A stretch of DNA of 64,000 nucleotides from Rhodanobacteraceae bacterium (lineage in GTDB: Bacteria > Pseudomonadota > Gammaproteobacteria > Xanthomonadales > Rhodanobacteraceae). A program made the translations under genes and the position numbers. Location: contig SCQU01000013.1 of the NCBI GenBank assembly GCA_004299555.1, forward strand, positions 1 to 64,000, in the 5' to 3' direction. The notes below the pieces were generated by a model. The model was given only the letters and a program-made list of their open reading frames with translations, made no database searches and was not told where the DNA came from. Every line of letters starts with the position of its first letter. Position 1 is the stretch's first letter. Below, in pieces: positions 3,917 to 21,582 of this stretch.

Positions 3917-5857
3917 ATGGTGCCTGACGCCAGCTTCCCGCAACCCGACACAACTGGCCGCAGCACACCTGCCGCGCGCGATCGACTGGCGGTTGCGGTC
4001 GACGCCGCGCGCACACGCATCCTTGGCTACCAGCACCCGGTGGGTTACTGGCAGTTCAACCTCGAAGCCGATTGCACCATCCCGGCCGAATACATATTGA
4101 TGTTGCACTACTTCGGCGAGTCCGACCGGTTGCTGGAAGCACGCCTCGCCGAATACCTGCGCGCCCACCAGTGCCGCGACGGCGGTTGGCCGCTGTATCC
4201 TGGCGGCGCGCTGGACGTGAGCTGCAGCGTGAAGTGCTACTTCGCGCTGAAGCTGGTGGGCGACCGCGCAGATTCGGTCCACATGACGCGCGCACGCCAG
4301 GCCATCCTCGCGCACGGCGGTGCGGCGCGCAGCAACGTTTTCACGCGTATCGCGCTGGCCCTGTTCGGCGAGCTGCCGTGGCGCGGAGTGCCTTTCCTGC
4401 CGGTCGAAACGATCCTGCTGCCGCGCTGGTTCCCGTTCAACCTGGCCAAGGTGTCGTACTGGTCACGCACCGTCATGGTGCCGCTGTCGATCCTGACCAC
4501 GCTGAAACCGCATGCGGCCAATCCGCGCGGCATCCACATCAGCGAACTGTTCCTGGCGCCGCCGGCCCAGGAACACCACTACTTCCACGCGCGCTCACTC
4601 CTCAACCGCGTGCTGCTCGCGGCTGAGGAAGTCGTGCGCCACCTCGAGTTCCTGATTCCCAGCCGCGTACGCCGCCACGCGCTCAAGCGCGCCGAACAAT
4701 GGATCCTCGCCCGCCGCAACGGCGAGGGTGGCCTCGGCGGCATTTTCCCGGCCATGGTCAATGCCTATGAGGCACTGGCCCTGCTCGGCTATCCGCGCGA
4801 GCACCCGGCGCGGCAGGAAACGCGCAGGGCCATCGACGATTTGCTGGTGGTGCATGGCCACTCGGCGTGGTGCCAGCCCTGCGTGTCGCCGGTGTGGGAC
4901 ACCGCGCTCACCTGCCTGGCCCTACAAGAGGATCCGGATGCGCCGGCCGCCGCCACGCGACGCGCGCTCGACTGGCTGGTGCAGCACCAGCTGCGCGACG
5001 AGCCCGGCGATTGGCGCGCGTACCGGCCCAACCTGCGCGGCGGCGGCTGGGCGTTCCAGTTCAAGAATGATGCCTACCCCGACCTCGATGACACCGCCGC
5101 CGTGGCGCGCGCGCTGCGGCAGGCTCCCGATCACGCGCCATTTGCCGACGCGATCGAGCGCGCAGCCGACTGGTTGTGCGGGATGCAGTCGAAAAACGGG
5201 GGGTTCGGCGCGTTCGATGCCGACAACAACCACCAGTGGCTCAACCAGATCCCCTTTGCCGACCACGGCGCGTTGCTCGATCCGCCGACCAGCGACGTCA
5301 GCGGCCGCGTGCTGACGCTGCTGGCGCTGCTCCAGCGCCCCCAGGACGCCGCGGCGCGTGCGCGCACCCTGCGGTTCCTGCTGGACGAGCAAACCCCGGA
5401 AGGCGCATGGTTTGGCCGTTGGGGCACCAACTACCTGTATGGCACCTGGTCGGTGCTGGTGGCCCTGCGGCTGGCCGGCCTGCCGCCGGATGCGGCCTGC
5501 ATCCGGCGCGCGGTCACGTGGCTGAAATCCGTGCAGCAGGCGGACGGCGGCTGGGGCGAAGGCAACGACAGTTACCTCAACCCCGAACTGCGCGGCCGCG
5601 GCGCGCGCAGCGGGGCGACGCAAACCGCGTGGGCAATGCTGGCGTTGCTGGACGCCGGCGAAGGCGCGAGTCCCGCGGTGGCGCGCGGTGCGGACTACCT
5701 GCTGCGCACCCAGGTGGACGGCGAATGGCACGACGGGCGTTTCAACGCGCCCGGCTTTCCGCGGGTGTTCTATCTGAAGTACCACGGCTACAGCCGTTAT
5801 TTCCCCTACTGGGCATTGGTACGCTATCGCAATGTCACCGTCGCCGGCCGCCACTGA
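3917..5857 (+). CDS. shc: Squalene-hopene cyclase
   Basis: This 646-residue protein of the prenyltransferase-like alpha/alpha-toroid family cyclises squalene to hopene or diplopterol at the membrane. The catalytic DxDD motif is present as DLDD at residues 389-392, and several QW-type repeats (GGW, GGFGAF, GAWFGRWG, GGWGEG) are spread through the sequence. A DxDD motif rather than the VxDC-type motif of oxidosqualene cyclases supports squalene as substrate. Length matches bacterial cyclases (about 630-680). The gene starts 6 bases after the squalene synthase stop without an obvious ribosome-binding site, so translation is probably coupled. It overlaps hpnG by 26 bases at its 3' end. Confidence 0.95.
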   Translation: MVPDASFPQPDTTGRSTPAARDRLAVAVDAARTRILGYQHPVGYWQFNLEADCTIPAEYILMLHYFGESDRLLEARLAEYLRAHQCRDGGWPLYPGGALDVSCSVKCYFALKLVGDRADSVHMTRARQAILAHGGAARSNVFTRIALALFGELPWRGVPFLPVETILLPRWFPFNLAKVSYWSRTVMVPLSILTTLKPHAANPRGIHISELFLAPPAQEHHYFHARSLLNRVLLAAEEVVRHLEFLIPSRVRRHALKRAEQWILARRNGEGGLGGIFPAMVNAYEALALLGYPREHPARQETRRAIDDLLVVHGHSAWCQPCVSPVWDTALTCLALQEDPDAPAAATRRALDWLVQHQLRDEPGDWRAYRPNLRGGGWAFQFKNDAYPDLDDTAAVARALRQAPDHAPFADAIERAADWLCGMQSKNGGFGAFDADNNHQWLNQIPFADHGALLDPPTSDVSGRVLTLLALLQRPQDAAARARTLRFLLDEQTPEGAWFGRWGTNYLYGTWSVLVALRLAGLPPDAACIRRAVTWLKSVQQADGGWGEGNDSYLNPELRGRGARSGATQTAWAMLALLDAGEGASPAVARGADYLLRTQVDGEWHDGRFNAPGFPRVFYLKYHGYSRYFPYWALVRYRNVTVAGRH

Positions 5858-6548
5858 AGGCGCAGGGCTGGTCGTGGCGTTGCCCGCCGAGGCGCACTGC
5901 GTCGGTGCGCGCGGAATGCGTGCGGGCGACTGCCAACGCTGGCAGCACGGCTGGATCGCGGTCGCCGGCATCGGCCCGCACAACGCCATGCGCGCAGCCG
6001 AACGCCTGCTCGCGTGCGGCGTCAGCCAGCTGGCGAGCTGGGGCGTGGCCGGCGCGCTCGACGCCAAGCTGGCGCCGGGCGACGTCCTGATCCCCGACCG
6101 GGTGCTGCACGCCCTGGATGATCCTGGCTTCGCGACCGATTCCGGCCTACGCGCGTGCCTGGACAGCGCGCTCGCGCGGTACCTGGTGGTACGCCGCGGT
6201 ACGCTGTGGTCCGCCGCGCGACCGGTCACCACGCAAGCCGGCAAGCAATCGCTCGCCGCCCGCAGCGGTGCGATCGCGGTCGACATGGAAGCGGCCGCCG
6301 TCGCCGCGGTCGCCGCCCGCGCCAGGCTTCCCTTCGTGGCGCTGAAGGCCATCTGCGACCCGGCCACGCGGGAACTGCCAGCGTCCATCGTGCATGCGCT
6401 CGACGTGTCCGACGGCGGCGTCTCGTGGCGCATGGTGGCGGCGATCCTCACGGGCGGCCCGCTGGCGTGGCGCGCGGCGCGCGCCTTGGCGCACGACTTC
6501 GCGTGTGCGCGCCGATCGCTGACGACCGCCGCTGCGTTGGCCGCATGA
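5832..6548 (+). CDS. hpnG: Hopanoid-associated nucleoside phosphorylase HpnG
   Basis: The 238-residue protein belongs to the purine nucleoside phosphorylase/MTA-SAH nucleosidase superfamily. It has an early AGIGPHNA strand-loop, a SWGVAGAL segment and the AIAVDMEAAAVAAVA motif that binds the ribose and base. In hopanoid gene clusters HpnG removes adenine from adenosylhopane to give ribosylhopane, the step after HpnH, whose gene lies at about 62 kb here. It begins inside the cyclase gene (26-base overlap) and its stop overlaps the start of hpnA, so it belongs to the same transcript. Confidence 0.88.
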   Translation: MSPSPAATEGAGLVVALPAEAHCVGARGMRAGDCQRWQHGWIAVAGIGPHNAMRAAERLLACGVSQLASWGVAGALDAKLAPGDVLIPDRVLHALDDPGFATDSGLRACLDSALARYLVVRRGTLWSAARPVTTQAGKQSLAARSGAIAVDMEAAAVAAVAARARLPFVALKAICDPATRELPASIVHALDVSDGGVSWRMVAAILTGGPLAWRAARALAHDFACARRSLTTAAALAA

Positions 6549-7537
6549 ACACCCGCGTCCTCGTCAGCGGCGCCAACGGCTTCGTTGGTTCCGCCGTGGT
6601 GCGCGCACTGGTGCGGCACGATTATGCCGTGCGCGGCCTGGTGCGCGCCAGCAGCAACGTCAGCAACCTCAGCGGACTCGAGGTCGAAATCGTCCACGGC
6701 GACCTCTTGGACCCGTCCTCGCTGGAGCACGCGCTCACCGGTTGCGAGGGGCTGTTCCACGTCGCCGCCGATTACCGGCTGTGGGCGCCCGACCCGCGCG
6801 TGATCGGCCGGACCAACCTGCGCGGGACCCACAACATCCTCGTGGCTGCGCAGCGCCGTGGCGTGCGCCGGATCGTGCATACCTCCAGCGTCGCGACGCT
6901 GGGACTCAACGCCGACGCCACGCCGGCGGATGAGGAGACGCCCTCGCGCCTGGCCGACATGATCGGTGCCTACAAGCGTTCCAAGTACCTGTCCGAGGCA
7001 CTGGTGCGGCGCTGCGCGCACGCCGGCCAGGACATCGTCATCGTGAATCCGGCCGCGCCGGTCGGCCCGCGTGACGCCAAACCCACGCCGACCGGGCGCA
7101 CCATCCTCGACGCCGCGCGCGGCAAGATGCCGGCCTACGTCGATACCGGCCTTTGCGTGGTACACGTCGAGGACGTTGCCGAAGGCCACGTGCTGGCGTT
7201 CGAGCGCGGCCGGCGCGGGCGCCGGTATGTGCTTGGCGGCGACAACCTGAGCCTCCACGACATTCTCGCGACGGTCGCGGGGCTGACCGGCCGCCGCGCA
7301 CCGTGGCTGCGGCTGCCGCACGCCGCGGTACTGCCCGTGGCCTACGCGGCCGAAGCCTGGGCGCGCATCAGCGGCCGCGCGCCATTGATCACGGTCGACG
7401 GCGTCAAGCTGTCACGCCACAAGATGTATTTCAGCAGCCGCCGCGCGGCAAGCGAACTTGGCTACCACGCGCGGCCCGCGCGGGCCGCGCTGGCCGACGC
7501 AATACAATGGTTCCGGGACAATGGATACCTTGGATGA
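6545..7537 (+). CDS. hpnA: Hopanoid-associated sugar epimerase HpnA (extended SDR)
   Basis: This 330-residue protein is an extended short-chain dehydrogenase of the NAD-dependent epimerase/dehydratase type. The Rossmann glycine motif GANGFVG lies near the N terminus, the active-site YKRSK (YxxxK) around residue 140, and HTSSVATLG supplies the serine of the triad. HpnA is a standard member of hopanoid clusters and is thought to act on the sugar moiety of hopanoid head groups, although its exact reaction is not settled. The start codon overlaps the hpnG stop (ATGA), and its own stop overlaps the start of the decarboxylase gene, joining the hopanoid half of the operon directly to the mevalonate half. 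Confidence 0.88.
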   Translation: MNTRVLVSGANGFVGSAVVRALVRHDYAVRGLVRASSNVSNLSGLEVEIVHGDLLDPSSLEHALTGCEGLFHVAADYRLWAPDPRVIGRTNLRGTHNILVAAQRRGVRRIVHTSSVATLGLNADATPADEETPSRLADMIGAYKRSKYLSEALVRRCAHAGQDIVIVNPAAPVGPRDAKPTPTGRTILDAARGKMPAYVDTGLCVVHVEDVAEGHVLAFERGRRGRRYVLGGDNLSLHDILATVAGLTGRRAPWLRLPHAAVLPVAYAAEAWARISGRAPLITVDGVKLSRHKMYFSSRRAASELGYHARPARAALADAIQWFRDNGYLG

Positions 7538-8535
7538 CCGCGGATACCTCGCAGGCTACGGCCACGGCGCAACCCAACATCGCGCTGGTCAAATACTGGG
7601 GCAAGCGCGACGCCACGCTGAACCTGCCGGCCGCGGGCTCGCTTTCGATCACGCTGGCGGGGTTGCACACGCGCACGCACGTTCACTTCGATCCCGCGCT
7701 GGACGCCGACGACGTTGCGCTGAACGGTGCGCGCGACACCGCGCAAACGCGCAAGGTCAGCGCGTTCCTGGATTTGTTCCGCGCCCGCGCCCGGGTCGAC
7801 ACCCGCGCACGCGTGACGTCCAGCAACGACTTTCCGACCGGCGCGGGGCTGGCATCGTCGGCGTCGGGCTTCGCCGCACTCGCGGTCGCGGCCGACCGGG
7901 CGTTGCGGCTTGGCCTCGGCGCCCGCAACCTCTCACGGCTGGCGCGCCGGGGCTCGGGTTCGGCCGCACGCTCGATCTTTGGCGGCTTCGTGGAAATGTC
8001 GGCCGGCACGCGCGCCGACGGCGAGGACGCGTTCGCGACGCCGCTGCTGGCCGCCGACGCCTGGCCGCTCACGGTCGTGGTCGCCATCACCGCCCGCGGT
8101 GCCAAAAGCATCAGTTCACGCGCCGGCATGGAGGCGTCACAACGCGCATCGCCGTTTTACCGTGCATGGCTGGCGACGGTGCCGGAGGACCTCGCCAGCG
8201 CGCGCGCGGCGGTCCAGGCGCGGGACTTCGAGCAGCTGGCGCGGGTCAGCGAGGCCAGCTGCCTTGCCATGCACGCGGTGATGCTGGCAACCCGCCCGGC
8301 GCTCCTCTACTGGAACCCGGCGACGGTTGCCTGCATCGACTGCATCCGCGGCCTGCAGCGCGACGGCATCGGGGTGTTTTTCACGATCGACGCCGGCCCC
8401 CAGGTCAAGGCCGTGTGCCTGCCGGGCGCCTCTTCCCGCGTGGCCGCCGCGCTGCGCGGTGTCGGCGGGGTCCAGGACCTCGTGACCAGTACGCTGGGTG
8501 CCGGCGCGCGCGTGGTCCCGGACACCGCGGCATGA
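7534..8535 (+). CDS. mvaD: Diphosphomevalonate decarboxylase
   Basis: The 333-residue GHMP-fold enzyme uses ATP to convert mevalonate 5-diphosphate to isopentenyl diphosphate. Family hallmarks are visible: NIALVKYWGKRD near residue 15, the phosphate loop DFPTGAGLASSASG near residue 105, GSGSAARSIFGGFVEM, and FFTIDAGPQVK with the conserved aspartate. The ATG at 7534 overlaps the hpnA stop; an in-frame ATG at 7507 would add nine residues inside hpnA and is less likely. Together with the following phosphomevalonate kinase it defines the classical (eukaryote/Gram-positive) branch of the pathway. Confidence 0.93.
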   Translation: MTADTSQATATAQPNIALVKYWGKRDATLNLPAAGSLSITLAGLHTRTHVHFDPALDADDVALNGARDTAQTRKVSAFLDLFRARARVDTRARVTSSNDFPTGAGLASSASGFAALAVAADRALRLGLGARNLSRLARRGSGSAARSIFGGFVEMSAGTRADGEDAFATPLLAADAWPLTVVVAITARGAKSISSRAGMEASQRASPFYRAWLATVPEDLASARAAVQARDFEQLARVSEASCLAMHAVMLATRPALLYWNPATVACIDCIRGLQRDGIGVFFTIDAGPQVKAVCLPGASSRVAAALRGVGGVQDLVTSTLGAGARVVPDTAA

Positions 8536-9560
8536 GCATCGCGACTAGCGCCCCGGGCAAACTGGTGCTGCTGGGCGAATACGCCGTGCTGGACGGCGCC
8601 CCCGCGCTGGTGCTGGCGGTGAACCGCCGCGCGAACGCCACGCTCACACCCATCCCGGGCGATTGCTTTGAAATCATTTCGCCCACGCTGGGCATGGCTG
8701 CACGGCTGCGGCCGGGGGACGGCGCCGCACACCGCCGCGGCCCGGCCCCGCCGGCCGAGCTGGCGTGGATCGCGACATTGCTCGCGCACTTCGGGCCGGC
8801 GCGGACGCTGCCCGCCTGCCGGGTCGAACTTGACAGCGACGCGTTTTACGTTGACCACGCCGGGGCCAGGGTCAAGCTTGGCTTGGGTTCCAGCGCGGCG
8901 CTCGCCGTTGCCTTGCTGGGCGCCTTGCGGGCGCTGGCCCAACTGCCGCCTCCCGCGCTCGCCGAAGCCATCGCGATGCACCGCGCCATCCAGGGCGGAC
9001 GCGGCAGCGGCATCGACATCGCGGCCTCGCTCGCGGGTGGCTTGACGCGCTTCCAGCTGGACGCCGCCGGCGCCGCACACGCCACGCCGGCCAGCCTGCC
9101 GCGCGGCCTGCACATGTGTTGCGTGTACAGTGGACGCCCGGCGTCCACCCGCGCGATGCTGGCGGAAGTTGCGGCCTGGCGCACGCATGCGCCCGGCGCA
9201 TACACACGGCACATCCGCGAACTCGCTACAATTTCTTCACGCGGCGTCGACGCGGTTGCCACCGGCGACGCTGCCGCCTTCCTGTCCAGCCTCAGCGCGT
9301 ATGCACAAACCCTGGCCCGTTTCGGCCACGCCTGCGGCGTGGATATTGCAAGCCGCGAACACCAGACCATCGGTGCCATCGCCACGGATTGCGGTTGCGT
9401 CTACAAAAGTTGCGGCGCGGGCGGCGGTGACGTGGGCATCACGTTTGGCGTGGACAATCACCGCGTGCAGGTTTTTGCATCACGCGCGGCACGCGCCGGT
9501 TTCCGCGTGATCGGGCTGGAAGCAGACCCGCGGGGTCTGGGCATGATGGTCAACGTCTGA
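8532..9560 (+). CDS. mvaK2: Phosphomevalonate kinase
   Basis: The 342-residue GHMP kinase phosphorylates mevalonate 5-phosphate to the diphosphate. It opens with SAPGKLVLLGEYAVLDGAPA, carries the ATP loop GLGSSAALAVALLG, has GSGIDIAASLAGG in place of the family's GSGxDxAA motif, and ends with a KSCGAGGGDVG motif matching the KxxGAGGGD signature of phosphomevalonate kinases. These last two features separate it from mevalonate kinase. ATGA overlap with mvaD and 17 bases to the next gene place it firmly in the operon. Confidence 0.9.
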   Translation: MSIATSAPGKLVLLGEYAVLDGAPALVLAVNRRANATLTPIPGDCFEIISPTLGMAARLRPGDGAAHRRGPAPPAELAWIATLLAHFGPARTLPACRVELDSDAFYVDHAGARVKLGLGSSAALAVALLGALRALAQLPPPALAEAIAMHRAIQGGRGSGIDIAASLAGGLTRFQLDAAGAAHATPASLPRGLHMCCVYSGRPASTRAMLAEVAAWRTHAPGAYTRHIRELATISSRGVDAVATGDAAAFLSSLSAYAQTLARFGHACGVDIASREHQTIGAIATDCGCVYKSCGAGGGDVGITFGVDNHRVQVFASRAARAGFRVIGLEADPRGLGMMVNV

Positions 9561-9577: not shown

Positions 9578-11836
9578 ATGGATCAGTCAAGATTGCCGGG
9601 CTTCTACAAATTGTCGGTGTCCGAGCGTGTGGACCTGGTACGCGCACGCGGCCTGGTCTCGCGTGAAGACTTCCAGTCGCTGTCGACCGGCGCGCATACG
9701 CTCACCGTCGCACGCGCCGACAAGATGATCGAAAACGTGGTCGGCGTGATGGGGCTGCCACTGGGCCTTGGCCTCAACTTCCTGATCAACGGCGCCGATC
9801 GCGTGGTGCCGCTGGTGGTTGAAGAGCCCTCCATTGTCGCGGCGCTGTCCTCGGCGGCCAAACTGGTGCGCGCGGCGGGCGGCTTCACCACCCGCTCGAC
9901 CGAGCCGATCCTCATCGGCCAGGTGCAGATCGTCGACGTCGACAACTCGGCCAGCGCACAAAACGCGCTGCTGCAGCGCAAGCAGGAAATCCTCAACCTC
10001 GCCAACAGCCTGCACCCGAAGATGGTCGCGCGCGGCGGCGGCGCCAAGGACATCGAAGTCCGCATCTATCCGGGCGCGGCCGAAGGCCGCGACATGGTGG
10101 TACTGCATCTTTTGGTCAACACCTGCGACGCGATGGGCGCCAACATGGTCAACACCATGTGCGAAGGCGTCGCGCCGTTGGTGGAAACCATCACCGGCGG
10201 CAAGGTGTTCCTGCGAATCTTGTCCAACCTTACCGACCGCGCGCTGGTCTGGGCCAAGGCCGTGATCCCGACCGCGCTCCTGGCCGGCAAGGGCTACGAC
10301 GGCGAACAGGTGCGCGACGGCATCATCCTCGCCAACGACCTTGCGCTGTGCGATCCGTACCGCGCCGCGACGCACAACAAGGGCATCATGAACGGGGTCG
10401 ACGCCGTGGCCCTTGCCACCGGCAACGACTGGCGCGCGCTGGAAGCCGCGGCCCACGCCTACGCCGCGCGCGGCAAGCACTACACGTCCCTGACCCGCTG
10501 GTACAAGGACGATCTGGGCAATCTCGCCGGCAGCCTCGAGATGCCGATGAAGGTCGGTACCGTCGGCGGCAACCTGCAGTCGAACGCCACGGTCGCCTTG
10601 AACCTGCGCCTCCTGAACGTCGGTTCGGCGCGGGAGCTGGCGGAGATCATGGGCGCGGTGGGGCTGGCGCAAAACTTCTCGGCCCTGCGCGCGCTCGTCA
10701 CCGACGGCATCCAGCAAGGCCACATGACGCTGCACGCGCGTTCGGTCGCGGTCAGCGCGGGCGCGACCCCCGAAATTTTCGACACCGTGGTTGAACGCCT
10801 GCTCGACAGCGGCGAGGTCAAGGTGTGGAAGGCCAAGGAGATCATCGCCGAGGTACGCGGCCAGGCGCAGCCGGAAGCCACGACGGTGGCGCAGGGTTTC
10901 GAGCCGGTGGATGACGCCGAATACGCGACCGGCTACGGCAAGGCAATCCTTCTCGGTGAGCACTCGGTCGTCTACGGCCGGCACGCCATCGCGGTGCCGG
11001 TGCCGATGGCCATCCGCGCGCGCGCCGAGGCGTCGAAGGACGGCACCTGGCTCATCATCCCGCGCTGGGGCGTCGAACAGCGCCTGCATCCGGGCACCAA
11101 GCACCCGGGTTCGTTCCTGCAATCGCTCGAACTGATCCTTGCAAAGCTGGAACTCAGCGAACGGCCGCTGCGCATCCAGGTGTACCCCAACCTGCCGCGC
11201 GCCAATGGCCTCGGCGGCTCGGCGGCACTGGCGGTCGCGGTCATCCGCGCGCTTGACCGTTACTGTTCACTCGGCCTGACCGACCAGCAAGTCTGCGCGC
11301 TGGCCTACGAATGCGAACGCGTGGCACACGGCACGCCGTCGGGCATCGACAACACGGTGGCAACCTACGGCCAGCCATTGCTGTACCAGCGCGGCGAGCC
11401 CCCGGTGATCGAACCGCTGCACTTTGCCAAACCGCTGCCGATGGTGATCGGCCTCTCGGGCGTGGAGAGCCTGACCGCGCGCACGGTGCGTCGCGTACGC
11501 GAGGCATGGCTGCGCAACAAGCCGCTGTACGAGCGCATTTTCGATGAAATCGACGCGCTGGCGATGCAGGGCATCAAGGCGCTGGAGGCGTGGGACCTGC
11601 AACAGTTTGGCGAGCTCATGAACGTCTGCCAGGGCCAATTGAACGCACTGCAGGTATCGAGCTGGGAGCTGGAAGAAATGATCCAGATCGCGCGCACCAA
11701 CGGCGCGGTCGGAGCCAAGCTCACCGGCGGCGGCGGCGGCGGCGCAATGATCGCGCTGTGCCCCGATGATCCGGGCCGCGTGGCGCGCGCGCTGAAGCAG
11801 GCCGGCTACCAGGCGATGGAGACCCACCTTGGCTGA
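9578..11836 (+). CDS. mvaA-mvaK1: Bifunctional HMG-CoA reductase-mevalonate kinase fusion
   Basis: One uninterrupted 752-residue frame joins two consecutive pathway enzymes. Residues 1 to about 430 are a class II HMG-CoA reductase: ENVVG with the catalytic glutamate (52-56), DAMGAN (184-189), GIMNGVDAVALATGND (about 269-284) and GHMTLHAR with the catalytic histidine (381-388). After a short linker, residues about 452-752 are mevalonate kinase: GYGKAILLGEHSVVYG at the start, ATP loop GLGGSAA (544-550), HGTPSGIDN (584-592) and KLTGGGGGGA near 714-723. Each half has near-complete family length. The ATG at 9578 has GGGG 7 bases upstream; a TTG at 9563 is the alternative. The product would convert HMG-CoA to mevalonate 5-phosphate in one polypeptide. 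Confidence 0.93.
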   Translation: MDQSRLPGFYKLSVSERVDLVRARGLVSREDFQSLSTGAHTLTVARADKMIENVVGVMGLPLGLGLNFLINGADRVVPLVVEEPSIVAALSSAAKLVRAAGGFTTRSTEPILIGQVQIVDVDNSASAQNALLQRKQEILNLANSLHPKMVARGGGAKDIEVRIYPGAAEGRDMVVLHLLVNTCDAMGANMVNTMCEGVAPLVETITGGKVFLRILSNLTDRALVWAKAVIPTALLAGKGYDGEQVRDGIILANDLALCDPYRAATHNKGIMNGVDAVALATGNDWRALEAAAHAYAARGKHYTSLTRWYKDDLGNLAGSLEMPMKVGTVGGNLQSNATVALNLRLLNVGSARELAEIMGAVGLAQNFSALRALVTDGIQQGHMTLHARSVAVSAGATPEIFDTVVERLLDSGEVKVWKAKEIIAEVRGQAQPEATTVAQGFEPVDDAEYATGYGKAILLGEHSVVYGRHAIAVPVPMAIRARAEASKDGTWLIIPRWGVEQRLHPGTKHPGSFLQSLELILAKLELSERPLRIQVYPNLPRANGLGGSAALAVAVIRALDRYCSLGLTDQQVCALAYECERVAHGTPSGIDNTVATYGQPLLYQRGEPPVIEPLHFAKPLPMVIGLSGVESLTARTVRRVREAWLRNKPLYERIFDEIDALAMQGIKALEAWDLQQFGELMNVCQGQLNALQVSSWELEEMIQIARTNGAVGAKLTGGGGGGAMIALCPDDPGRVARALKQAGYQAMETHLG

Positions 11837-12428
11837 GGACCGCGACCCGCGCGTGGTGTCATTCGACTCCGAACGCCTGATTCTGGTCGACGCGGCCGAT
11901 CGCGAGATCGGCTTTGCAACCAAGGCCGACGCGCACGCCGGCAAGGGCATCCTGCACCGCGCGTTCTCGCTGTTCGTGTTCAACCCCGCGGGCGAACTGC
12001 TGCTGCAGCAACGCGCGCCCGGCAAGCCCTTGTGGCCGGGTTACTGGGCCAACAGCTGCTGCAGCCACCCGCGCGGCGGCGAAAACATGGAAGTTGCCAC
12101 CCAACGCCGCCTCAGCGAAGAGCTGGGCTTCACCTGCGGGCTCGAGTACCTGTTCAAGTTCCAGTACCACGCCGAGTTCGGCGCCAGCGGCTCTGAGACC
12201 GAACTGTGCTCGGTGTACGTCGGCACCTCCGCCGCGCCGGTGCGGGTCAACGATACCGAAATCGCCGCCTGGCGCTATGTAAAACCGGAAGCGTTGGACC
12301 GCGAAATCGCGGACACCCCCGAACACTTCACGCCCTGGCTGAAACTCGAATGGCAGCGCCTGCGCGGTGAATTCGCCGATCGCCTGCCGCGCGCCAGCGC
12401 GTCTTCGCCACGGCAACGCGAAGCCTGA
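11829..12428 (+). CDS. idi: Isopentenyl-diphosphate delta-isomerase, type 1
   Basis: The 199-residue Nudix-fold protein interconverts IPP and DMAPP, which a mevalonate pathway needs because it makes only IPP. Type 1 features are visible: the cysteine segment ANSCCSHP, the Nudix box running HPRGGENMEVATQRRLSEEL, and the SETELCSVYVG strand bearing the second catalytic acid. Translation appears to start at a TTG at 11829, supported by GGAG 7 bases upstream; the coding region overlaps the preceding fusion gene by 8 bases. It is the last gene tightly linked to the pathway before glucokinase. Confidence 0.92.
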   Translation: MAEDRDPRVVSFDSERLILVDAADREIGFATKADAHAGKGILHRAFSLFVFNPAGELLLQQRAPGKPLWPGYWANSCCSHPRGGENMEVATQRRLSEELGFTCGLEYLFKFQYHAEFGASGSETELCSVYVGTSAAPVRVNDTEIAAWRYVKPEALDREIADTPEHFTPWLKLEWQRLRGEFADRLPRASASSPRQREA

Positions 12429-13952: not shown

Positions 13953-13972
13953 ATGTGAGATGTGGTTCACAT
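13953..13972. promoter_or_regulatory. Palindromic operator-like site upstream of TIR gene
   Basis: ATGTGA and TCACAT form a perfect 6-base inverted repeat with 8 bases between them; a nested ATGTG/CACAT pair with 3 bases between shares the right half. The half-sites resemble those of CRP/Clp-type regulators, but the canonical spacing there is 6, not 8. It lies about 125 bases upstream of the TIR gene start and could be its operator. Confidence 0.35.
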
Positions 13973-14096
13973 TTTGGTAGAGTTGCCTTCCCGCTCCGGC
14001 GCCGCCGGAACGGGGCGACCCGCCGGTGCCTTGCGCGCTCGACGATCGCGCCCCGCCAAGGACGGTGTGCAGCAACGTCGAACGCAGGTGACGGTC

Positions 14097-16352
14097 ATGC
14101 CCGAATCGTCGTCCGGTTCCAGCTTCACGTATCGCGCGTTCATCAGCTACAGCCACCGCGACAAGGCGTGGGCGGATTGGCTGCACCGGTCGCTCGAAAC
14201 GTATCGCGTACCTTCGCGGTTGGTCGGCAAGCAAACCGCGGCGGGCGTGATCCCACGTCGCCTGAATCCGATCTTCCGCGACCGCGAGGAACTGTCGAGT
14301 TCGCCGGAGCTCGGCAGCAAGATCAATCAGGCGCTCGCACAGTCCGAAAACCTGATCGTGCTCTGCTCGCCCGCTTCGGCCACCTCGCGCTGGGTAAACG
14401 AGGAAGTGCTGGCGTACAAGCGCATGGGCCGCGCCAGGCACATCTTCTGCCTGATCGTGGAGGGCGAACCCAACGCGACCGATAGGCCCGGCCGCGAGGC
14501 GGAAGAATGTTTTTGTCCCGCGCTGCGCTTCGCGACGGATACGGACGGACGGCCCACGAACGAACGCACCGAGCCGATTGCAGCCGACGCGCGCGAGGGC
14601 AAGGACGGCAAGGCCAACGCCAAGCTGAAACTGGTCGCGGGCATGCTCGGCGTCGGGTTCGATGCGCTGAAGCAGCGCGAACTGCAGCGCCGCACCCGCC
14701 GCATGACCGCGATCGCCGCGCTGGCGCTGGGGGTGATGGCCGTCACCAGCGTGCTGGCGGTGTACGCGCTGATTTCGCGTCACCAGGCTGTGATCGCGCA
14801 ACACCAGGCGGTCGTCGCGCAACAAGCCGCGCAACGCCGCCAGAAACAGGCTGAGGGCCTAGTCAACTTCATGCTCGGCGACCTCACTGGCAAGCTCAAC
14901 GAAGTCCACCGACTCGACATCCTGCAGGCCGTGGACAACAAGGCCATGGCCTACTTCAAGTCGCTGCCGGCCACGGACGTCAACGACGCGGCACTGGAAC
15001 AACGCGCCAAGGCCTTGGAAGCAATTGGCACCGTACGCATGCAACAAGGCCAGCAGGTTGCCGCGCGTCAGGCGTTTCTGGCTTCCACACGCATATCTTC
15101 GCAGCTTGCTGCCTCGGCTCCGATGGACGCCGCACGGCAGATGGCCTATGCAAACACGTTGAACTTCATCGGCTTCACCTACTGGGACGAAGGAAATCTC
15201 GAGGCAGCGCAGCAAAACTTCATATTGTCGCAAGCTTCTCTGCTGCACGCGCAAAAAATGACAAAAGGCAGTCCGAAACTAGATTCCCAGTTGGCCACGA
15301 CCATCAACAACATTGGGCACGTGCACGAAGCACGCGGCAACCTCAATGCGGCGATCGCTGCGTACCGCAGCATGCTTGCGCTTTTGCAAAGTGTGGTTTC
15401 AGATCAACCTAAAAACATGGATTGGAAAAACCTGCTCGGGAACGCATGGGACGACCTGGGAAAAGTCGAGCTTGAGCAAGGCCACCTTGATCGCGCCATC
15501 ACCGACTACCGTACAGACCAGAACCTCCGGGAAGCCATGTCCGCCGGGGATCCCGCCAACCACGACGAGCTGAACGATTTGATGGTCAGTGATGCCATCC
15601 TTGGCCGCACGCTCGCACTTTATGGCGACATGCAAGGGGCTCTTCGGTACACCCTTTCCGCAGTGGACATCGGCAAGAGTCTGGTCAAGTTCGAGCCTGC
15701 CGACACGGACAATCAAGATGACCTGGCGCTCTACAGCTCGCAACTCGGTGGCCTGTTGCGCCAAACGGGCCAAGTAACCGCCGCAGCTGTTGCCGATGCC
15801 GAAGGCGTGGCGATTTTTTCGACGCTGGTTTCCAGGGATCCAAAGAACTCCGGATGGAATCGAGGCTTCGCACAAGCGCGCATCGAGCTTGCTCAACTGA
15901 AGCTCCGGCAGGGCGATACAGGCGCAGCGCGCTCGTCGGTTGACGACGCGTTGCAGTTGCTGGAGTCTCTGCGTCGTACGAACGCATCCGACCCCGCGCT
16001 CGCCCTGCTCGCGGCGCAAGCCAACCTGATCATGGGCGAAATTTCAGCGAAACAGGGCGACACGGCGGAGGCGCACAAAGCCTGGATCGACGCGCGAACC
16101 GCCGTTGCCGACAAAAGTATCAGCAACGACCCGAACGCGCTCGCAGCAGTCGTCAGGGCTTGCCTGCTACTCGACGACACTGCTGCGGCACGACCATCGC
16201 TCGCGAAATTGTCGGCGATGGGCTACCGCACACCCGACTTCGATGCGCTGCTCGATGCCAAGCATGTGACCTACACGGTGGACCCCAGAGCCACAGCGCG
16301 CATCAACGCCGCGATCAACGAACCGGTGAACCCGCTCAAAAAGCCCTTATAG
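14097..16352 (+). CDS. TIR domain - transmembrane - TPR repeat protein
   Basis: The 751-residue protein has an N-terminal TIR domain (about residues 10-160, beginning FTYRAFISYSHRDKAWADWL). The helix after LIVLCSPAS reads SRWVNEEV, which aligns with the S-x-W-C-x-x-E pattern of NAD-cleaving TIR domains and puts Glu103 at the catalytic position. One membrane helix follows (about 203-226), then a helical QAEGLVNFMLGDL segment and TPR-like repeats (for example INNIGHVHEARGNLNAAIAAY) to the C terminus. The ATG at 14097 is preceded by AGGTGA. GC content falls to about 50 % in parts of the TPR region, below that of neighbouring genes, which suggests transfer. The gene sits 74 bases before a small companion gene. 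Possible roles are NAD-depleting immunity or stress signalling; neither is shown. Confidence 0.82.
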   Translation: MPESSSGSSFTYRAFISYSHRDKAWADWLHRSLETYRVPSRLVGKQTAAGVIPRRLNPIFRDREELSSSPELGSKINQALAQSENLIVLCSPASATSRWVNEEVLAYKRMGRARHIFCLIVEGEPNATDRPGREAEECFCPALRFATDTDGRPTNERTEPIAADAREGKDGKANAKLKLVAGMLGVGFDALKQRELQRRTRRMTAIAALALGVMAVTSVLAVYALISRHQAVIAQHQAVVAQQAAQRRQKQAEGLVNFMLGDLTGKLNEVHRLDILQAVDNKAMAYFKSLPATDVNDAALEQRAKALEAIGTVRMQQGQQVAARQAFLASTRISSQLAASAPMDAARQMAYANTLNFIGFTYWDEGNLEAAQQNFILSQASLLHAQKMTKGSPKLDSQLATTINNIGHVHEARGNLNAAIAAYRSMLALLQSVVSDQPKNMDWKNLLGNAWDDLGKVELEQGHLDRAITDYRTDQNLREAMSAGDPANHDELNDLMVSDAILGRTLALYGDMQGALRYTLSAVDIGKSLVKFEPADTDNQDDLALYSSQLGGLLRQTGQVTAAAVADAEGVAIFSTLVSRDPKNSGWNRGFAQARIELAQLKLRQGDTGAARSSVDDALQLLESLRRTNASDPALALLAAQANLIMGEISAKQGDTAEAHKAWIDARTAVADKSISNDPNALAAVVRACLLLDDTAAARPSLAKLSAMGYRTPDFDALLDAKHVTYTVDPRATARINAAINEPVNPLKKPL

Positions 16353-20043: not shown

Positions 20044-21582
20044 TCATGCAGCGTGGTCTACACCCGCCTCCGGTGACGCCAGATCGGCCCCCGCGTAGCG
20101 GTAGTACGCCACGCCATAATCGTGGAACGAAGCGTCATCATGCGTGCCGACGTGGTCGATGACCACGCCCGCCGACGCTACCCGGTGCACCGCATCGAGC
20201 GTGCCCGCATCGTGCAGCGACACGTACGCGTCGCGCTCCAGATCCACCGCGCCGGCAAGCGCCGCGCGGAACCCTATCGCGCGCGCCGCCGCTTGCCAGC
20301 CGGGCACCAACCGCGCCGGAATGGCCTCGGCCGCATCACCGCTGCCGTAGCCCAGCAGCAGCAGTTCGCGCCCCTCCAGCGCGACGGCATTCACCGCCGC
20401 ATCCTCGAGCCCGGCGGCCAGCCATGCCGGCAGCGCGGCGGTGTAGAGGTTGCCCAGTTCCAGCATTGCCGCAGACCCGGCGCGGAGCTTGTCTTCCACC
20501 ACCTGCCGGTAGGCCGGAGTTTTGCGAAACACCTTGAGCAGCGCAGAAGCAGCGGGATACGCATCCGCCGGCAGGCTGTCGGCACCGCACGCGCGGACGC
20601 CAAGGCGCCACTCTGAGGTGACAGCCTCCTGCGTCACGCCTGCCGCCGCGCAGTAACCGGCCAGCCCATCGGCCGCCGCATGGTCGCCGTGCTCCGCATC
20701 GTGCGCGAGCGCAGCCAGATACGCCATCGCCCAGGCGTTGCGCGGCATCCGGTGGTAGGGGCGATGCATGAATACCGCCCCCAGCCCGCGCATCCAGGCG
20801 TTGCGCGAGCCTGCGCGCCGGGCGCACAGCGCGTCCAGCGCGCACAGCGTCGCCTCGGTGTAACAGTCGGTCGAATATTTGCCGTTGAACACCGGCTCGT
20901 CGCGCAGGCGCCCATGCCGTCCCGGCACCTGCCCGGCAAACCGGAGGAACGGCTTGCGAAAATCCAGCTCGCGGTAGGCGGAGGCACTGCCGCCGCCGGC
21001 AAGGTCAAATTGCATCAGCCGCGGCGCGGATTCCAGCAGCATCGCAACCGCGCCCGCCCCCTGGGTCGGCTCGCCGCTGCTGCCGCGTGCGTACTCGGCC
21101 ATGTCGGCACTGACCACGATGGCCTGCCGGTTGCGCCCGTCGCAGGCGAGGTAACGCAAGCCGCCCTTCAGCGCGTACACACCGCCCAGGCACGCGTGCT
21201 TGAACTCGGGCACCTCGCACGCGCGCGCCAGCGCGGGCCGGCCCTGCGCCGCCAGCGCGGCGTCCACCAGGCCACGCACGATGACCGCACCCGCCGCATT
21301 GTCGACGCTGGACTCGGTACCCAGCGCGAGATAACCGACGCGGCCCGGATCGATGGCGTACCGCGCCAGCAAACGCAGCACCGCGTTGGCGGCCAGCGTG
21401 TAAACATTCTGATCCGGACCGGCCATGCGGAACGCGCGCCCTACAACCGCGTGCAATTTGGCCGGGTCATTGCGCGTCCATTCGCACCAGCGATCCAGGT
21501 CCACCCGGTACGGCGGCACCCAGACAGCCATTCCGCTGAGGCCAACCCCGGGACTCGTCACCTGCGCGCGTGCGCTCACCAT
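20044..21582 (-). CDS. Hydroxymethylglutaryl-CoA synthase
   Basis: The 512-residue thiolase-fold enzyme condenses acetoacetyl-CoA with acetyl-CoA to HMG-CoA, the entry step of the mevalonate pathway. The catalytic cysteine is Cys131 in EFKHACLGG, the general acid/base Glu90 lies in LALGTESSVDNA, and His273 lies in FMHRPYHRMP. A GYGSGDAAE loop near the C terminus also fits the family. It is longer than Gram-positive MvaS (about 390) because of extra sequence in the C-terminal half. GGAG lies 6 bases upstream of the ATG. It stands apart from the rest of the pathway, about 7.6 kb downstream of idi and on the opposite strand, so its expression is probably controlled separately. Confidence 0.9.
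   Translation of the reverse strand: MVSARAQVTSPGVGLSGMAVWVPPYRVDLDRWCEWTRNDPAKLHAVVGRAFRMAGPDQNVYTLAANAVLRLLARYAIDPGRVGYLALGTESSVDNAAGAVIVRGLVDAALAAQGRPALARACEVPEFKHACLGGVYALKGGLRYLACDGRNRQAIVVSADMAEYARGSSGEPTQGAGAVAMLLESAPRLMQFDLAGGGSASAYRELDFRKPFLRFAGQVPGRHGRLRDEPVFNGKYSTDCYTEATLCALDALCARRAGSRNAWMRGLGAVFMHRPYHRMPRNAWAMAYLAALAHDAEHGDHAAADGLAGYCAAAGVTQEAVTSEWRLGVRACGADSLPADAYPAASALLKVFRKTPAYRQVVEDKLRAGSAAMLELGNLYTAALPAWLAAGLEDAAVNAVALEGRELLLLGYGSGDAAEAIPARLVPGWQAAARAIGFRAALAGAVDLERDAYVSLHDAGTLDAVHRVASAGVVIDHVGTHDDASFHDYGVAYYRYAGADLASPEAGVDHAA

Follow-up and report, generated by a model that had tools for sequence, protein, structure and literature searches.

The window analysed here, a stretch of 64,000 nucleotides, carries a gene that very probably specifies a natural bifunctional enzyme, HMG-CoA reductase (HMGR) joined to mevalonate kinase (MK), at work in a mevalonate pathway that replaced the MEP pathway; the two activities are assigned from sequence. 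The exact complementarity between this gene and IspH in related genomes (20 carriers against 41), together with its place in a mevalonate operon, makes it the most likely working enzyme for both steps.

A single frame for two complete enzymes

The gene and its parts are as follows:

9578-11836, + strand: HMGR-MK fusion gene, a single open frame of 752 codons, ATG to TGA
9578-10858, + strand: class II HMG-CoA reductase domain, residues 1-427, with E83, K268, D284, H382 and the cofactor-helix stretch 146-152
10859-10933, + strand: linker, residues 428-452, whose length and sequence differ among the aligned relatives
10934-11836, + strand: mevalonate kinase domain, residues 453-752, stop included, with K455, S548, E580, D591 and the glycine loop 717-722

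A preliminary description of this DNA had proposed a continuous frame of 752 codons giving a single polypeptide, in which two complete enzymes of consecutive steps keep their motifs. Both points are borne out. The frame is open from ATG to TGA, with a class II HMGR in residues 1-427 and an MK in residues ~453-752, and a stop or frameshift, looked for at residues 430-455, is absent from it. The list of open reading frames begins the gene at a TTG 15 bases upstream of the ATG; of the full-length matches in relatives, all 19 begin to align at residue 1, 2 or 3 counted from the ATG. Pfam recognizes HMG-CoA_red, GHMP_kinases_N and GHMP_kinases_C, all above the gathering score, and of the 16 motif positions checked in the alignment none varies over the 70 fused rows (among them L003 and L022, whose coordinates suggest the same contig). 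As for the 46 distinct PDB sequences that match the fusion, the best stretch is confined to one half in each. Comparison with four members of the genus shows both domains to be under purifying selection, dN/dS being 0.08-0.19 for HMGR and 0.06-0.18 for MK, ranges that leave aside the L118 pair, which gave no usable dS for either domain; the linker, with 25 codons too short to judge, gave 0.17-0.44 within the genus.

The genome to which the window belongs (98.3% complete) has one HMGR match, and the mevalonate kinase model matches it in three places: the fusion's own domain, alone over the cut-off, and the PMK and MVD genes. With one HMGR and one MK over the cut-off, no candidate for either step other than the fusion is therefore visible.

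An assembly or binning artefact might have joined neighbouring genes, all the more as HMGR and MK stand side by side as two genes in eight Bacillaceae loci and on one Myxococcaceae contig. However, the in-frame fusion is shared by 69 further loci, a pair of which seem to be the same contig, and it is present in the single-contig genomes G004, G014 and G032 as well as in strains of Dyella monticola and of three Cryobacterium species. Because full-length homologues exist in independent assemblies, a joining artefact is ruled out, its probability being negligible.

The reductase and kinase halves

Residues 1-387 match the NCBIfam model of class II HMGR, TIGR00532, with 404.4 bits against a cut-off of 259.95, and the best PDB match of the reductase part is 1qax_A, the class II reductase of Pseudomonas mevalonii (E=1e-121). 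None of the 70 fused rows departs from E83, K268, D284 and H382, which correspond to the catalytic Glu/Lys/Asp/His of the P. mevalonii enzyme, E83/K267/D283/H381; the roles given throughout to catalytic and motif positions of both domains are those known from the literature. In the PDB alignment, the position of P. mevalonii Asp146 is occupied by His in 68 of the 70 fused rows, and Arg152 is found in 69, the middle Ser of the motif being mostly replaced by Lys, Arg or Asn (50/59 rows, together with His146 and Arg152). According to a part of PMC13370337, NADPH users among class II reductases carry (H/Y)xSxxxR, and NADH users Dx(V/L)xxxL. Apart from this middle Ser, the cofactor helix of the fusion resembles the former motif, and its preference would probably be for NADPH.

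The kinase half is recognized by the NCBIfam mevalonate kinase model TIGR00549 over residues 454-727 (231.8 bits, cut-off 163.05) and matches stand-alone mevalonate kinases in the PDB. K455, S548, E580, D591, K714, T716 and G717 are identical in 70/70 fused rows, the Lys, Ser, Glu and Asp of the GHMP motif being presumably the catalytic residues.

A mevalonate operon

Upstream and downstream of the fusion, the window contains:

3917-5857, + strand: squalene-hopene cyclase (TIGR01507, 787 bits, over cut-off)
5832-6548, + strand: HpnG-like (TIGR03468, 149.5 bits, below the cut-off of 187.1)
6545-7537, + strand: HpnA (TIGR03466, 475 bits, over cut-off)
7534-8535, + strand: diphosphomevalonate decarboxylase, MVD (Pfam MVD-like_N 195.4 bits and MDD_C 60.8 bits, over cut-off)
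8532-9560, + strand: GHMP kinase resembling phosphomevalonate kinase, PMK (best NCBIfam model TIGR01220, 90.6 bits, below the cut-off of 165.7; its place is conserved)
11829-12428, + strand: type I isopentenyl-diphosphate isomerase, IDI (NF002995 166 bits and TIGR02150 146.4 bits, both over cut-off)
20044-21582, - strand: divergent HMG-CoA synthase (PF01154 45.7 bits and PF08540 32.8 bits, over cut-off)

The fusion gene sits in a mevalonate operon. MVD, the PMK-like kinase, the fusion and IDI follow one another in a tight run, where the ATG of MVD overlaps the stop of the preceding gene, the start of PMK overlaps the end of MVD, and the TTG start of IDI, as given in the list of open reading frames, overlaps the end of the fusion gene. 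Hopanoid genes (3917-7537, + strand) lie directly upstream of this run. The arrangement is conserved: in the 46 of 69 fused loci that have enough flanking sequence, PMK and MVD are upstream in 39, IDI is downstream in 35 and all three are in place in 31, one locus (L046) showing no PMK, MVD or IDI in the expected places. Further along the window, at 13962-16352 (+ strand), there is a TIR-domain protein with tetratricopeptide repeats, which scores 38.4 bits with the Thoeris ThsB TIR model (cut-off 21.2).

Probable replacement of the MEP pathway

A full-length fusion in one stop-free frame is present in 20 of 61 genomes, that is, the window's own and 60 relatives; the carriers are 14 of the 16 members of the genus and six others of the family or order. 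IspH was found in 41 genomes, exactly those that lack the fusion, and in none of the 20 carriers, a split that should not be read as 61 independent observations, the genomes being related. DXR follows the same pattern, with 40 of the 41 fusion-free genomes (G052 is the exception) and no carrier. The two members of the genus without the fusion, G010 and G015, retain both IspH and DXR, so that the isoprenoid pathway has changed among members of a single genus. A type II DXR standing in for DXR was also considered; it would not give an MEP pathway, since IspH is missing from the same 20 genomes.

It is at this point that a role of the reductase half in the degradation of mevalonate must be weighed. 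TIGR00532 is labelled 'degradative', which speaks for such a role by name only. Against it stand the operon shared with PMK, MVD and IDI, the absence of IspH and DXR, and the residues of the cofactor helix (His at the P. mevalonii Asp146 position in 68 rows of 70, Arg152 in 69), closer to the NADPH motif than to that of NADH users. A degradative role is very improbable, and we retain the biosynthetic one.

The step before HMGR is that of HMG-CoA synthase. The HMG-CoA synthase of the window, some 8 kb downstream of the fusion and on the opposite strand, scores 151.1 bits with the curated prokaryotic model TIGR01835, below its cut-off of 360.35, which is reached by none of the 17 genomes tested, the window's own included. 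Such a divergent synthase often, though not always, accompanies the fusion. PF01154 matches in 16 of the 61 genomes, all of them among the 20 fusion carriers, and finds nothing in the remaining four carriers, G002 (89% complete), G007 (73%), G045 (99%) and G060 (92%). Relatives of the window's synthase, at 52-56% identity, are present in four fusion-bearing genomes of other families. In six fusion-bearing genomes, 92-99% complete (G045, G060, G099, G292, G177 and G388), there is neither a relative of the window's synthase nor, by TIGR01835, any recognizable HMG-CoA synthase, the matches to this model being partial and weak (25-34 bits). Six open reading frames near the operon in L118 and L026 were scanned for a substitute for a missing synthase; four of them hit Pfam families, none HMG-CoA-related, and two were without a match.

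Distribution and origin

The HMGR-MK fusion is a widespread architecture. In a sample of the class, where at most two candidates were scored per genome, 9 of 369 genomes have it, the window's own counted. A scan of GTDB contigs gave 590 confirmed loci, the best 80 of which comprise 46 fused in one frame, two cut by the end of the contig and 32 with an unfused reductase, proportions in which fused forms are probably favoured, longer matches being likely to rank higher. Among these best 80, the record titles of fused loci name Pseudomonadota, Calditrichota, Acidobacteriota, Actinomycetota and Planctomycetota; the fused loci are mostly MAGs, some of them possibly misbinned, with Dyella monticola and the three Cryobacterium species as named strains. 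An origin on plasmids was looked for in 72,556 plasmid records and rejected: 42 gave partial matches, none covering at least 80% of the query.

Trees were built for each half, after reduction from 117 to 104 rows for HMGR and from 90 to 78 for MK; they omit the window's own copies (L001 and L002) and 14 loci, of which 11 belong to close genus members and three are cut at contig ends. In the reductase tree (59 fused rows and 45 others), the fused rows make up one side of a branch with an SH-aLRT of 99. The kinase tree, with 59 fused and 19 unfused rows, likewise has a branch that sets the fused ones apart, its support being weak at 34; this tree is flagged for long branches meeting, and both are 'quick' trees, computed with no bootstrap. 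Over the 59 fused rows, path lengths in the two trees are correlated at 0.90, the highest of 999 permutations reaching 0.27, and 25 of 56 splits are common to both, 200 shuffles giving at most one. Cryobacterium with Salinisphaera and G229, as well as five Calditrichota rows, are groups found in both trees. Because the domain trees are congruent, and because the fused reductases separate at a branch of 99%, these data, for loci sampled by similarity to the window, suggest one old fusion, handed down whole and subsequently transferred from lineage to lineage.

The linker: one chain or two, tether or channel

Over the 70 fused rows, the linker is poorly conserved and varies from 10 to 78 residues, the longest (L060:5973-8451, from a Cryobacterium MAG) holding a short repeated unit. 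An AlphaFold2 model of the monomer, for which 56 of the 70 fused sequences were aligned, predicts two well-defined domains (mean pLDDT 87.7); pLDDT falls below 50 at residues 431-443, and the whole-chain pTM is 0.58. In fold comparison, these domains match P. mevalonii HMGR on the one hand, and the mevalonate kinases of Methanosarcina mazei and Leishmania major on the other. The linker starts after the last of three C-terminal helices (378-430) of the model, and the C-terminal region of another class II reductase is described, in a part of PMC13370337, as a three-helix domain. The model points to two domains that are independent of each other and flexibly tethered, rather than to a rigid channel.

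The preliminary description had put forward that the fusion could channel mevalonate. A direct passage of mevalonate between the two halves, by proximity or by true channelling and apart from the bulk pool, would suit consecutive steps on one polypeptide, in a fusion found under the record titles of five phyla. Yet the linker is of variable length and poorly conserved, and the low pLDDT at 431-443 and the pTM of the monomer model support no fixed arrangement of the domains. Thus there is no indication of a fixed tunnel, and we consider channelling unlikely. The 1:1 ratio proposed at the same time fares better, as it follows from a single chain, provided that this chain is uncut and that no extra kinase is started internally.

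This proviso leads to the possibility that two proteins are made in the cell, by proteolysis of the linker or from an internal start, the fusion then mainly setting dosage. The linker is predicted to be exposed and flexible. Its region contains an in-frame start-like codon in 56 of the 70 rows (GTG or TTG in 50, ATG in 12), in 17 of which (two apparently one contig), by plain count, it follows a Shine-Dalgarno-like stretch. Nevertheless, ATG occurs in just these 12 linkers, 14 have no start-like codon at all, and the linker alignment has no conserved Met column. We hold the two-protein reading to be quite improbable and keep that of a single chain, while start-like codons may leave room for some additional free kinase.

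Proposed role

We may now put these elements together. The N-terminal class II HMGR would reduce HMG-CoA to mevalonate, probably with NADPH, and the C-terminal kinase would phosphorylate this mevalonate with ATP, the two halves being connected by a linker, probably flexible, that starts where the small helical domain at the C-terminus of the reductase ends, in a chain that would stay in one piece. Together with PMK, MVD, IDI and the divergent HMG-CoA synthase, the fusion would lead to isopentenyl and dimethylallyl diphosphate. Forward and reverse assays are reported for class II reductases in a part of PMC12292504, so the reaction is reversible. Since these enzymes run both ways, the likely advantage of the fusion would be equal dosage, fixed at 1:1, and quick removal of mevalonate, the kinase pulling the reductase forward. 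A bolder scenario, tentative and on balance doubtful, would make a single ancient fusion the core of an operon that moved between phyla and replaced the MEP pathway as it went, with a tether that renders the reductase effectively one-way, since mevalonate would be taken away where it is formed.

The consequences would be of some importance. In a part of PMC12292504, HMGR is named as the enzyme that determines the rate of the mevalonate pathway, and the fusion turns the question whether tethering a kinase alters its flux into a simple assay. A natural HMGR-MK in one protein would be a ready-made part for metabolic engineers and, for evolutionary biologists, a clear marker with which to trace how the mevalonate pathway took the place of the MEP pathway.

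Comparison with known systems

The preliminary description knew of no characterized enzyme of this architecture, and the open-licence PMC literature, mostly judged by title and the start of the abstract, agrees, as no description of an HMGR-MK fusion was recognized there. None appears in the parts consulted of PMC13001223, PMC13370337, PMC12292504 and PMC3847144; the fusion is unmentioned in the section of PMC13001223, a 2026 review, on diversity at the gene and protein level. Both domain families are already known, as is the natural tethering of consecutive pathway enzymes; it is the pairing of HMGR with MK that is apparently undescribed in this open-licence literature.

The HMGRs of P. mevalonii (PDB 1qax) and Delftia acidovorans (6dio) have the same fold, with ~50-54% identity in the fold matches, and share the catalytic residues with the fusion. 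They are stand-alone enzymes that use or prefer NADH, according to a part of PMC13370337, whereas the reductase of the fusion is linked to a kinase, and its cofactor helix looks more like that of NADPH users. Stand-alone mevalonate kinases (Methanosarcina mazei 6mde and 4hac, Leishmania major 2hfs, and 2x7i) share the GHMP fold and motifs with the fusion's kinase, but they are unfused and only 30-33% identical to it in the fold matches shown. Entry 2x7i is the Staphylococcus aureus-type enzyme.

The Bacillaceae loci L071-L078 and the Myxococcaceae MAG L068 have HMGR followed by MK, in the order of the fusion, but in two open frames. The adjacent genes of L068 could represent a pre-fusion state or a later split. 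The Bacillaceae kinases are only 31-34% identical to that of the window. At L068:3466-5752, the kinase is 38% identical to the window's, the most similar unfused one among those fetched.

Bifunctional enzymes of isoprenoid precursor synthesis include IspDF of the MEP pathway, mentioned in a part of PMC13001223. It resembles the fusion in being bifunctional, but belongs to the other pathway and joins non-consecutive steps. MvaE of Enterococcus, an acetoacetyl-CoA thiolase fused to a class II HMGR, is a further likeness, as here too an HMGR is naturally fused to another enzyme of its pathway. The fusion has no N-terminal acetoacetyl-CoA thiolase domain, Pfam at E <= 0.001 giving HMG-CoA_red and the two GHMP domains only. 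The partner in MvaE is the upstream thiolase, on the N-terminal side, whereas the fusion described here carries the next enzyme of the pathway, on the C-terminal side.
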